DNA of 64,000 nt from positions 1,240,001-1,304,000 of the forward strand of contig NZ_CP022188.1 of assembly GCF_003111665.1 (NCBI RefSeq), read 5' to 3'. This document shows, one piece after another, positions 32,679-38,447 of the stretch; position 1 is the stretch's first letter; each line of letters opens with the position of its first letter. This DNA comes from Parazoarcus communis (GTDB lineage: Bacteria > Pseudomonadota > Gammaproteobacteria > Burkholderiales > Rhodocyclaceae). The position numbers and the translations under genes were made by a program. The notes under the pieces are model-generated. The model was not told where the DNA came from. It searched no databases and worked only from the letters and a program-made list of their open reading frames with translations.

Positions 32679-35600
32679 TCAGGCTGGTTTCGGTTCCGCA
32701 GTGCCGCACCGTGCAGCGAGAAACTCCACCAGGTGGCGGCCGGTATGCGATGCGGGATTGTCCATCGCGACCTCGGGCGGCCCTTCGGCCACGATCTGTC
32801 CGCCGCCATCCCCACCCTCTGGGCCAAGATCGATCAGCCAGTCGGCCTCGGCCATCACATCGAGGTCGTGCTCGATCACCAGTACGGTGTGCCCGGCATC
32901 GGTCAGCCTGTGCAGCACATGGATCAGCTTGTCCACATCAGCCATGTGCAGGCCGACCGTAGGCTCGTCGAGCACGTACAGGGTGTGACGATCGGCAGGC
33001 AGGGGCACACCACCGCTTGCAGCGGCATCGCCCGGCCGGTTGCGTACCTTGGACAGCTCGGTCACCAGCTTGATGCGCTGCGCTTCGCCACCCGACAGCG
33101 TCGGGCTGGGCTGGCCAAGGGTCAGATAGCCCAGACCCACGTCCTGCAGCAGTTGCAGCGGATGGGCGATGGACGGGTGGGCAGCGAAAAAGCCCACCGC
33201 CTCGTCCACCGGCATCGCCAGCACCTCGGCCACCGTCTTCTCGCGCCAGCGTACCGACAGCGTTTCGGGATTGAAGCGGGCACCGCCACAGGCCTCGCAA
33301 GACGTCTTCACGTCGGGAAGGAAGTTCATCTCCACCGTGGTCTGCCCGGCCCCGTCACATGAGGGGCAGCGACCGGCACCGGTGTTGAAGGAGAAGCGCG
33401 ATGCGCTCCAGCCCCGGGTGCGGGCATCGAAGGTATCGGCAAACAGCTTGCGGATCGCATCCCAGAAACCGACATAGGTCGCCGGGCAGGAGCGCGGGGT
33501 CTTGCCGATCGGAGTCTGATCCACCTCGAGCACCCGACCGACCTGCTGCCAGCCCTCCAGGCTGCGACAGCCCACCAGCGTCTGATCCACCTCTTCCGGC
33601 TGTGCCTTGCCGCGGCGTCGCGCCCGCACCGCCTCAGGATCGCCCAGCCGCGCGCGCAGATTGGCGTGAATCACATCGCGTGCGAGCGATGACTTGCCCG
33701 ATCCCGACACCCCGGTCACCACGGTGAGCCGGGCCAGCGGGATGCTTGCATCGATGTTGCGCAGGTTGTGCAGGCTGGCACCCTCGATGCGGATCGCCGG
33801 GTGGTCTGCCGCCACCGGCCGCCGCGGACGCATCGGATGCTGCAAGGGATTGCGGAAGCAGGCACCGGTGGCCGACTCCGGTGCAGCCAGCAAAGCCGCC
33901 ACATTGCCTTCAGCCACCACCCGGCCACCGCGCACGCCGGCACCCGGGCCGAGGTCGATGACGTGGTCGGCACGGCGGATGGTGTCCTCGTCATGCTCGA
34001 CCACGAGCAAGGTATTGCCACGGTCGCGCAAGGCTTCCAGGGTATCGAGCAGCAGGCGGTTGTCACGCGGATGCAGGCCGATCGTGGGCTCATCGAGGAT
34101 GTAGCACACCCCGCGCAGGTTGGAGCCCAGCTGGGCCGCCAGCCGGATGCGCTGCGCCTCGCCACCGGACAGCGTCGGTGCGGCACGGTCGAGCGCGAGG
34201 TAGCCCAGTCCCACATGCTGAAGGAAATCGAGGCGACCGCGGATTTCGCTCACCAGGTCACGCGCAATGTCGTTTTCACGCTCGTTCAATACCAGTTCGC
34301 CGAAGAAGTCCGCAATCTTGTTCACCGCCAGCTTCGCCAGCTGATGCAGGCCGCGGTCACGGAAACGCACCGCACGCGCGACCGGATTGAGTCGCGCACC
34401 CTCACACGCCGGGCAGGGCTCATCGCTGCTGACTGTGTCTTCCGCATCGCCAAGGTCGAGCGCATCCGGATCTTCCACCCGCGCCGCCGTCTTCAGCCCC
34501 GTCCCGAAGCACTTTGGACACCAGCCATGCTCGGCGTTGTAGGAAAACAGACGCGGATCAGGCTCCGGAAAGCCGGTCCCACAACTCGGGCACGCCCGCA
34601 GCGTCGAAAACGTAATTTCAAAGGGGTCAGAGTCGTTTGATAGTTTCAAAGGGGTCAGAGTCGTTTGATCAAGGGGATCAAACGACTCTGACCCCTTTGA
34701 AACAAGTCGCAGCACCTTGAGCACGCCTTTTCCATGCTCCAGCGCAGCACCGACGAACTCGCGCAAGGTCGCCTCGTGTTCCGGCTGCACCACTACCATT
34801 CCGAGCGGCAGTTCGATGGAGTGCTCCTTGTAGCGGTCAAGCCGCGGCCATTTTGCGGTCGGCAGATATTCGCCATCCACCCGCAGTTGCGCATGGCCCT
34901 TGCCGCGGGCCCACTTGGCGAGATCGGTGTACAAACCCTTGCGGTTGGTGACCAGCGGCGCCAGCACTTCAACCGATGCACCTCTGAGTTCGCGCTGAAT
35001 CTGGGCGACGATCGCCTCGAAGCTCTGCGGTGTCACCGGTACCTGGCAGTCCGGGCAATACTGCGTGCCGAGCTTGACGTACATCAGACGCAGGAAGGGG
35101 TGGATCTCGGTCAACGTCGCCACCGTACTCTTGCGCCCGCCACGACTGGTGCGCTGCTCGATCGCCACCGTGGGCGGAATACCGAACACGCCGTCGACAT
35201 CCGGTCGGCTCGACGGCTGCACGAACTGGCGCGCGTAGGCGTTGAGCGACTCCAGATAGCGGCGCTGGCCCTCGCCAAACACGATATCGAACGCCAGTGT
35301 CGACTTGCCCGAGCCCGACAGGCCGGTGACCACGGTGAAGCGGTCGCGCGGAATCGACACGCTGATGTTCTTCAGGTTGTGCTCACGCGCATGATGAATC
35401 TCGATCGCCGGTGCCGTCAGCGCACGGTAGGCCACCGGCGCTTCGGCCACCATCGCCGGTGCAGCGCGGGTGCGCGCCAGCGCTTCCGCATACTCGCGCA
35501 GCGCAAGCCCGGTGTGAGATGAGGGATGTGCCCTCACCTGCTCCGGACTGCCCTCGACCACGATTTCGCCACCCCCTTCGCCGCCTTCCGGGCCAAGGTC

Positions 35601-38447
35601 GATGATCCAGTCGGCCGCTGCGATCACATCGAGGTTGTGCTCGATCACGATCAGTGAATTGCCCGCTTCGAGCAGCTTGTTGAACGCCCCCAGCAGGGTA
35701 GCGACGTCTTCGAAATGCAGGCCGGTCGTCGGTTCGTCGAACAGGAAGAGCAGACCAGGCGCAGCGTCCACCGCCTTATCCACGGACTTGCCAACAGCCT
35801 TATCCACAGCTTTCGACGCACGACTGCCCTTCTTCTGCGCCGCGCTTGCCAGATGGCCGGCCAGCTTCAGTCGCTGCGCCTCACCACCCGACAGCGTCGG
35901 CACTGGCTGCCCCAGACGCAGATAATCGAGGCCGACGTCGGACAGGGGTGCGAGCGCCGCCAGCACCTTGGGCTGATCGGCGAAGAAGCCCAGCGCCTCG
36001 CGCACCGTCATCTCCAGTACATCAGCCACGGAATGGCCACGCCATTGCAGCTCAAGCACTTCAGGGCGATAGCGCTTGCCGTCGCAATCCGGACAGCGCA
36101 GCCAGACATCGGACAGGAACTGCATCTCGACGTGCTCGAAGCCCGAACCGGTGCAGGTCGGACAGCGCCCGTGGCCGGCGTTGAAGCTGAAAGTGCCGGG
36201 CGAATAACCGCGCTGCTTGGCCTCGGGCAGGGCGGCAAACAGGTTGCGTATCGGATCCCAGGCGCCAACATAGCTGACCGGGTTGGAGCGCGAGCTCTTG
36301 CCGATGGCCGACTGATCGACCATCACCACACCGCGCAGTCCGTCCACGCCCTCCAGTCCGTCGAAGGCGCCCGGCGTGTCCACCGCCTCGCCAAAATGCT
36401 TTGCCAGCGCAGGATAGAGCACATCCTGGATCAGGCTCGACTTGCCCGAACCCGACACCCCGGTCAGACAGGTCATGCGCTGCAGCGGGAAAGACACGCT
36501 GATTCCGCGCAGATTGTGCTCACGTGCGCCGATCAGGGTCAGATGCGGCGTCGCGGCATCGACCGGACGCGATGGACGCTCCACATCGATACGTTTTCTG
36601 CCCGCAAGCCAGGGACCGGTGACCGAATCCGGATTTGCGGTGATCTCCGCCGGCGTGCCGCGGGCGACGATATTGCCGCCGCGCTCGCCAGGGCCGGGCC
36701 CGATCTCCAGCAACTCGTCCGCCGCTACCATGACCTGTGGATCGTGTTCGACCACCACCAGCGTGTTGCCCGCGTCGCGCAGCCGCGTCATCACCCCCAG
36801 AATGCGGCCGATATCGCGCGGATGCAGGCCGATCGAAGGTTCGTCGAGCACGAACAGCGTATTCACCAGCGAGGTACCGAGCGCCGTCGTCAGGTTGATG
36901 CGCTGCACCTCGCCGCCGGAGAGCGTCCGCGACTGCCGGTCGAGCGTCAGATAACCCAGCCCCACATCGGACAGATAGGTCAGCCGGCTGCGAATCTCGC
37001 CCAGCACCAGCTCGGTGGCCTCGTCCGCCACACCGGGCAGCTCAAGTGCGGTGATGGCTTCGCGGATGCGATCGACCGGCATCGCCATCAGCTGGTGGAT
37101 CGCCAACCCTCTTTTTTCAAAGGGGTCAGAGTCGTTTGATCGAGCGGTCAGATCAAACGACTCTGACCCCTTTGAAACGGGCAAGCGCCACAGCAAGGCG
37201 TCGGGTTTGAGGCGCGCGCCGTGGCAGGAGGGACATTCGGTGTAGCTGCGGTAGCGCGACAGCAGCACCCGGATGTGCATCTTGTAGGCCTTGGTCTCGA
37301 GCCAGACGAAAAAATGGCGCACCCCGTACCAGTAACGCGGCCATGAGCTGTCCCAGTTCTTCCACTTGGCGTCGCCTTCGAGCACCCACTGCCGGTGTTC
37401 CGGTGGCAGGTCGCGGAAGGGCACGTCCATCGCCACCCCGGCCTTCTTCGCCATCTTTGCCAGATCCTGCTGGCACTCGCGGTAGCTCTCTGTCTGCCAC
37501 GGCTTGATCGCGCCCTCGGCGAGCGTCTTTGATTCATCCGGGATCACCAGGCCGAAATCCACCCCGATGACACGGCCGAACCCGCGACAGGTCTCGCACG
37601 CCCCGATCGGCGAATTGAAGGAGAACAGGCCCGGGGTCGGATCGCTGTAATGGATGTCGCAGTCGGCACAATGCAGACCCTGCGAATAGCGCCACTCAGC
37701 CTCTTCGCCATCGCCGGCGGCAAACACCCGCAAGCGGCCATGGCCCAGACGGAGTGCCGCTTCCAGCGCTTCAGCCAGACGCGAGGGCTCGGCCGCCGAG
37801 AAGCGGAAGCGGTCCTGCACGACCTGCAGCACATCGGCATCCACACCCTCTTCGCGCCGATGGATGCGGGTATAGCCCTGTGCGTTGAGCAGCGCGGTGA
37901 TCTCGGCCTCGCTGTAGGTTTTCGGCACGGTGAGCGGAAAGCAGACCATCAGTCGCGGATCGCCTGCAGCCGCAGCGCGACGGCCGAGGTCCTCACAGAT
38001 GCTGTCGACCGAGTCACGCTTGACCGGCTTGCCGCAGCAGCGGCAGTGCAGATGCGAGGCGCGGGCGTAGAGCAGCTTGAAGTGGTCCGCAAGCTCGGTC
38101 ATGGTCCCGACCGTGGAGCGTGAGGTGCGCACCTGGCTGGTCTGATCGATCGCGATGGCCGGCGGCACGCCCTCGATGCGGTCGACCTGAGGCTTATCCA
38201 TGCGGTCGAGAAACTGCCGCGCGTAGGGCGAGAAGGTCTCGACGTAGCGGCGCTGCCCCTCTGCGTACAAGGTGTCGAACACCAGCGAGGACTTGCCCGA
38301 ACCGGATACGCCGGTCACCACCGTGAGGCGGTTCAGCGACAGGTCGAGCGAGAGATTGCGGAGATTGTTCTGACGTGCGCCGCGAATGCGGATGCTGTCT
38401 TTGAGGTCGGGCATGGCTGGGCTGCTGGAGGGGCGCAAGATGGTCAT
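32679..38447 (-). CDS. uvrA: Excinuclease ABC subunit A, double-length (tandem UvrA) with palindromic inserts
   Basis: At 1922 residues this is twice a normal UvrA (about 940). It is two complete UvrA copies in series: four Walker A motifs (three GVSGSGKSS, one GLSGSGKST), four LSGGE signatures, four Walker B motifs (such as [20 protein letters not shown]), and zinc-type CxxC pairs in each half. The fused form suggests an intramolecular dimer. UvrA finds DNA lesions for nucleotide excision repair with UvrB. Residues about 424-445 and 1249-1278 are encoded by palindromic repeat insertions that keep the frame. The start could also be 38414 ([12 protein letters not shown]). Confidence 0.93.
34616..34702. 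repeat. Palindromic element A inside uvrA (three 26-bp units)
   Basis: Three copies of one 26-bp unit: direct at 34616-34641 and 34644-34669, inverted at 34677-34702, with a 7-bp spacer CAAGGGG between the inward-facing copies. The unit begins TTTCAAAGGGG and ends GTCGTTTGAT. The whole insert is 87 bp (29 codons), has no stop, and in UvrA reads SKGSESFD...SNDSDPFE, just before the zinc motif of the second half. The same unit also makes element B. Confidence 0.95.
37115..37177. repeat. Palindromic element B inside uvrA (two 26-bp units)
   Basis: A direct copy of the 26-bp unit (37115-37140), an 11-bp spacer, and an inverted copy (37152-37177): 63 bp, exactly 21 codons. In UvrA it reads [20 protein letters not shown] and lies after the CPSCHGARL zinc segment of the first half. 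It can fold as a long hairpin in DNA or mRNA. Confidence 0.95.

Follow-up and report, generated by a model that had tools for sequence, protein, structure and literature searches.

Insertions of REP units within genes have been in print since 2013 (PMC3733652), and the accessible part of that report cites examples from Thioalkalivibrio and Opitutus terrae (both in uvrA) and from DNA polymerase I. Genes for replication and repair contain many of the intragenic REPs described there, mutator effects are proposed, and the REPs of genes of one functional category lie at differing sites, except for recB of two Xanthomonas species. The type of element dealt with here is therefore already known, and the statement of a preliminary description of the present DNA that no such element had been described in UvrA has to be withdrawn. 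Azoarcus is absent from the main text of the same report. A REPIN is taken here as a non-autonomous hairpin element that consists of two inverted REP units and would be copied by a RAYT.

The analysed stretch (the window) comprises 64,000 nucleotides of Parazoarcus communis, the genome of which (G000) is a single contig of 4.89 Mb. A 26-nt unit was located in the window five times, with its 23-letter core TCAAAGGGGTCAGAGTCGTTTGA exact in every copy, all inside uvrA and as described before, and 0 copies of the core were obtained in 100 shuffled windows. All five units lie within a single minus-strand frame (32679-38447) that is free of stops, in agreement with the earlier statement that the inserts are read in the uvrA frame. 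The features are listed below.

32679..38447, minus strand: double-length uvrA, host of both inserts (ORF and translation; 1922 aa, 1922 codons)
37115..37177, minus strand: insert 1, a 63-bp REPIN of two inverted 26-nt units with 11 nt between them, encoding a 20-residue peptide (UvrA residues 425-444)
37115..37140, plus strand: unit copy of insert 1, 26 nt (sequence search)
37152..37177, minus strand: unit copy of insert 1, inverted, 26 nt (sequence search)
34616..34702, minus strand: insert 2, 87 bp, a REPIN and one extra unit, encoding a 29-residue peptide (UvrA residues 1249-1277)
34616..34641, plus strand: unit copy of insert 2, 26 nt (sequence search)
34644..34669, plus strand: unit copy of insert 2, 26 nt (sequence search)
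34677..34702, minus strand: unit copy of insert 2, inverted, 26 nt (sequence search)

The host gene was identified as UvrA by the NCBIfam models NF001503 and TIGR00630, both above cut-off, and the Pfam matches to UvrA_DNA-bind and UvrA_inter were placed at residues 297-361 and 1141-1246 of the long protein, respectively. Insert 2 begins 3 residues past the end of the match to the UvrA interaction domain. Just before insert 1 lies a motif (10 residues) that we take to be the zinc-module motif. The alignment to the solved UvrA 3pih resumes directly after insert 1, at INGLNIHEF, and from this alignment the position of the insert may correspond to a tight turn. Relative to the congener G002, 22 codons replace 3 at site 1 (net gain of 19 codons, 57 nt) and 29 codons replace 7 at site 2 (net gain of 22 codons, 66 nt). 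The insert sizes of 63 and 87 bp given previously are therefore correct as element lengths and incorrect as net gains, because host codons were replaced. The 7 codons replaced at site 2 are a GxxGAxx segment that is present in G002, G003, G004, G013, G030 and G034, and the UvrA of Thauera sp. 63 (P0040) has SMGSDPIE at the position of this segment. A second, canonical UvrA is encoded in the same genome at G000:C1:626290-626613 (950-aa open frame).

The unit had been regarded as palindromic in itself. A lone unit is only weakly palindromic (-3.8 kcal/mol for one strand, 0 for the other), and it is the inverted pair that forms the palindrome, with perfect arms of 27-28 bp. For the two uvrA REPINs, the calculated RNA hairpins have -48.3 kcal/mol (z -12.95) and -51.4 kcal/mol (z -13.48), respectively, and a REPIN in polA gives -58.8 kcal/mol (z -7.45). 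On either strand of the unit, two frames are free of stops and the third contains TGA, by which the earlier claim of several stop-free frames is made more precise. The unit is dispersed in the genome, with 47 copies at ≤3 mismatches in 4.89 Mb and 0 for a reversed control pattern, as the preliminary description had required. In the fetched regions, 50 copies at ≤4 mismatches fall into 33 groups, and an inverted pair is present in 15 of them. A short unit with many dispersed copies and inverted doublets that form a hairpin, both of which are used to define REPs, were hence found in G000. The GT(A/G)G and CGTC heads were looked for on both strands of the 26-nt unit and are absent; since GTAG, GTGG and CGTC are all lacking, the unit lies outside both REP super-families as these are defined in the accessible part of PMC3733652. 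At L032:2755-2815, the C-terminal tail of a DUF2520/Rossmann-like protein is formed by a REPIN.

For the distribution among relatives, the best-matching uvrA loci from 27 of 60 other genomes searched were used. The peptide of site 1 was found in 1 of 22 informative relatives and that of site 2 in 1 of 25, G001 in both cases (L057 and L059 were left out by reason of a misread frame, and L069, L079 and L080 do not cover site 1), and the expectation that the peptides are not conserved at these sites was borne out. The element is absent at both sites of G002, G004, G030 and G034 and at site 2 of G003. Among the best 120 of 333 UvrA database matches, two proteins named Azoarcus sp. carry both peptides, and neither peptide is present in the other 118, of which P0018 and P0024 do not cover site 2. 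The exact 21-letter core was detected in 3 of 395 family genomes (G000, G001 and, as one copy, G394), and the copies at ≤3 mismatches numbered 40, 5, 0 and 3 in G001, G002, G003 and G004, respectively. Site 2 of uvrA in G001 (L054) has an additional in-frame duplication of 15 nt. Inverted-pair elements of 80-119 bp that have the unit as their boundaries occur in 8 of 11 stretches from Gemmatimonadaceae, a family of a different phylum (L093, L095, L096, L098-L101 and L103); tblastn with the RAYT of G000 gave no match within these 11 stretches.

A single gene with a Y1_Tnp match was found in G000 (L045:6223-6939) and was assigned to the RAYT family by NCBIfam NF047646 (84.8 bits, cut-off 80). 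It is bounded by units, with a REPIN upstream at 4724099 and a minus-strand unit at 4724925 at its 3' end. A Y1-transposase gene flanked by the unit elsewhere in the genome is what had been proposed for a REP origin mobilised by a RAYT, the alternative named in the preliminary description, and this origin is supported by the finding. The 3' unit (L045:6926-6948, G000:C1:4724925) serves two convergent genes, providing the final codons and the stop for the RAYT gene on one strand and for a molybdopterin oxidoreductase gene on the opposite one. In G001, a member of the same genus, RAYT and units are arranged as in G000. In G013, which belongs to a different genus, a RAYT 58% identical to that of G000 is bounded by a variant unit, of which this genome has 20 copies at ≤2 mismatches; the score of this RAYT on NF047646 (74.2 bits) is below the cut-off of 80. 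The unit family would be mobilised by the RAYT of G000 via single-strand transposition.

The polA REPIN of G000 is in frame and is located between the 5_3_exonuc and DNA_pol_A_exo1 domains (the 5'-3' / 3'-5' exonuclease linker). Alignment of 27 PolA proteins placed the insert in G000 and G001, and the other 25 do not have it; in a protein search with polA, 7 matches were returned, one of which (P0122) carries the insert peptides. In the PolA linker of G013, the variant unit of this genome forms a perfect palindrome of 54 bp, and the linker of the congener G003 (L128) contains a decayed unit that agrees with the G013 variant in 19 of 23 letters (score 15; 0 of 300 shuffles as good), in a genome that has no intact unit copies. 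No trace of the unit was detected in the PolA linker of G002 (243 and 231 of 300 shuffles as good), and the linker of G004, which has no polA insert, is borderline (1 of 300 shuffles as good for the G013 unit and 37 of 300 for the unit of G000). The reading that the PolA linkers of G002-G004 are all bare was dropped on account of the decayed unit in G003. Because this linker retains a decayed related unit, the polA insert is not simply datable to the G000-G001 lineage, and the linker may already have been decorated before the genus arose, G002 having lost the unit, or it may have been decorated more than once.

Selection on the host genes was estimated between G000 and G001, both of which bear the inserts. 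The dN/dS ratios were 0.041 for uvrA (dS 0.206, 1937 codons, stop to stop), 0.050 for polA (dS 0.145, 946 codons) and 0.148 for the RAYT gene (dS 0.105, 238 codons), and those between G000 and G002 were 0.052 for uvrA and 0.075 for polA; L137, L140 and L143, which failed the motif filter, were left out of the comparison. The low ratios between two insert-bearing lineages indicate that uvrA and polA are still constrained. One of the 49 repeat codons of uvrA differs between G000 and G001, and about 8 differences would be expected from the overall rate of the gene. In the arms inside uvrA and polA, 0 changes were counted in 161 nt, compared with 50 in 876 nt of the 150-nt flanks, a figure that is free of bias from unit matching and is based on 7 arms. 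Over 19 comparable loci, the arms have 12 changes in 690 nt and the flanks 321 in 4686 nt, a figure that is biased for the arms because the G001 loci were found by unit match; one of the 20 locus pairs (L032/L113) was left out owing to differing unit numbers, and some flanks were aligned over 2-53 of the 150 nt. The conservation of the arms would result from re-copying, from correction between REP copies, or from arm-to-arm correction in the hairpin.

At site 1, another conserved loop is present in 16 of 121 UvrA rows, and the site-1 segment of the other 105 has at most 24 residues in 50 rows, 25-30 in 7 and at least 31 in 48, from which it follows that the loop is length-variable in general. 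In G015 and G017, site 1 is occupied by GGGAGAGGG-type repeats folding into long hairpins (folds calculated without shuffle control), and a site-1 18-mer of G015 matches four further places in the genome of G015. Since 14-mers are shared between G015 and G017 at this site, they do not represent two independent families. Between the UvrA halves of G017, an inverted pair of a GTAG-preceded unit was found, with 54 copies of the unit at ≤3 mismatches in that genome, and short GGGAGAGGG-type stretches are present in the PolA linkers of G014 and G015. Judging from the protein sequences, the site-1 peptides of several Thauera and Aromatoleum UvrAs could be encoded by palindromes. When 50 UvrA site-1 inserts were tested for palindromes from their peptides (60 shuffles each), z was at least 5 in 11 rows, which is to be taken as suggestive only; these rows include the query, its two decorated relatives and the doubtful row P0078. 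In 24 of the 50 rows z was below 2.6, and several GTAG-like peptides have lower scores.

The frame of the unit groups was judged by codon-position GC. In-frame groups internal to genes accounted for 3 of 33 in G000 (uvrA twice and polA once), 2 of 11 in G013 (polA and a permease-like gene) and 1 of 34 in G017 (uvrA); the G013 group L160 was left out by reason of a masked stretch. This tally is biased, in that the inserts were the reason for choosing G013 and G017, as uvrA was for the window, and one of the two remaining internal sites, polA in G000 and the permease-like gene in G013, is in a repair gene. Because two of the three tallied genomes had been picked on account of their inserts, statistical enrichment in repair genes is no longer claimed. 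In the 11 Gemmatimonadaceae stretches, which come from two assemblies and were chosen by the exact unit alone, no clearly gene-internal group was found. The variant unit forms an in-frame REPIN in the permease-like gene of G013 (L158:2672-5257), the family matches of which are all below the cut-offs. In G017 (L178, from 5855), a GTAG-type REPIN lies directly before a gene that resembles mutY.

The inserts in uvrA and polA are very probably REPINs that were copied by the single RAYT found and are tolerated in variable loops of working proteins. Once the common lineage of G000 and G001 had split from G002 and G004, copies would have entered two loops of its long UvrA, with a few host codons being replaced and the frame being kept; a copy is also present in the PolA linker, which may have been decorated earlier. 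Given two stop-free frames on each strand of the unit and the natural variability of the sites, the proteins would have kept working and the copies would have been tolerated. The dispersal of the unit, its inverted pairing, its neighbourhood to the RAYT gene, the empty uvrA sites of relatives and the intact, constrained frames were all observed directly. The peptides are probably neutral. Among the findings that count against a REPIN copied by the RAYT, the uvrA sites have lost host codons, unlike in a simple insertion, the unit has neither CGTC nor the GT(A/G)G head that the available descriptions give for RAYT-linked REPs, and the RAYT of G013 scores below the family cut-off. Neither a target duplication nor an excision product was seen, and no movement was observed.

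According to the conjecture of 2013, REPINs would be kept for altering repair or expression, for example through the mRNA hairpin, with a mutator or tuned phenotype. We consider this unlikely for the present inserts. It would accord with the many intragenic REPs reported for replication and repair genes in the accessible part of PMC3733652, with the location of all internal in-frame groups of the G000 unit in uvrA or polA, with the other repeats that occupy this UvrA loop or the PolA linker in related genera and the decayed unit in the PolA linker of G003, and with the RNA hairpins in the coding regions. However, dN/dS of uvrA is alike in the decorated pair and across the undecorated congener G002, the site-1 loop varies in length in many UvrAs that do not have the unit, only one of the two internal sites is in a repair gene when the genes of choice are set aside, and the Gemmatimonadaceae stretches found by the unit alone contain no clear internal site. 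It is likewise doubtful that, across Rhodocyclales, unrelated REP families insert preferentially in one surface loop of the long UvrA and in the PolA linker, with REPINs that touch repair proteins being favoured. If this were true, REPINs would be favoured by changing repair, or repair proteins would meet REPIN intermediates, and the repeats would help to determine how fast their hosts mutate.

A coding palindrome like the Rickettsia RPEs, spreading within genes by a route of its own and without a transposase, is very improbable. The in-frame insertion in uvrA and polA and the several open frames are what such an element would give, but 3 of the 33 groups are gene-internal by codon-position GC and the rest are not, and a cognate RAYT exists; the likeness to RPEs drawn in the preliminary description holds only as an analogy, and its interpretation as a whole is partly supported. 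There is next to no likelihood that the double UvrA is a dispensable paralogue in which the inserts mark a pseudogene. The canonical UvrA of the same genome would allow for decay, but the frame is open, the extra 15-nt duplication in G001 is in frame as well, and polA, a core gene, is also decorated; the reading was rejected on the purifying selection found after insertion (dN/dS of 0.041). That the peptides are an old feature of UvrA, for which the variable and often long loop at site 1 would speak, and match the dispersed repeats at the DNA level by coincidence is almost certainly wrong and was rejected, given the nucleotide identity of the units, their genome-wide dispersal and the empty orthologous sites of the relatives compared, G001 excepted.

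The reading as REPINs copied by the RAYT and tolerated provides a clean case, with REPINs in two repair genes, empty uvrA sites in congeners and frames that remained constrained afterwards. The repair-alteration conjecture of 2013 thereby becomes testable by removing short stretches from uvrA and polA, and tolerance could be distinguished from selection if different repeats have entered one and the same UvrA loop and PolA linker time and again. In the literature searched, supplements lying outside the search, no earlier report was found of the headless unit with its RAYT, of one UvrA loop and the PolA linker as recurrent landing sites, or of empty uvrA sites with constraint figures.

The comparison with known systems is drawn from the accessible parts of the sources. 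The inserts resemble the intragenic REPs of PMC3733652 in that dimers occur within uvrA, of which some species have two in the gene, and within DNA polymerase I, and in that each dimer adds 20-30 residues, for which flexible loops were proposed; they differ in that the unit of G000 does not have the GTAG or CGTC head, and in that several genera were found here to have repeats at a common UvrA loop and in the PolA linker. Inverted hairpin doublets, conserved arms, a looser spacer and a RAYT gene flanked by inverted units are shared with the REPIN-RAYT systems (PMC3116915, 2011; PMC2817692, 2010), from which G000 differs by its small population (47 units), the absence of the GT(A/G)G head and the copies in coding sequence. 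The Rickettsia RPEs, compared by their description in PMC3733652, are likewise palindromic, in frame and located in seemingly functional genes, whereas G000 has a cognate RAYT and most of its groups lie outside genes.
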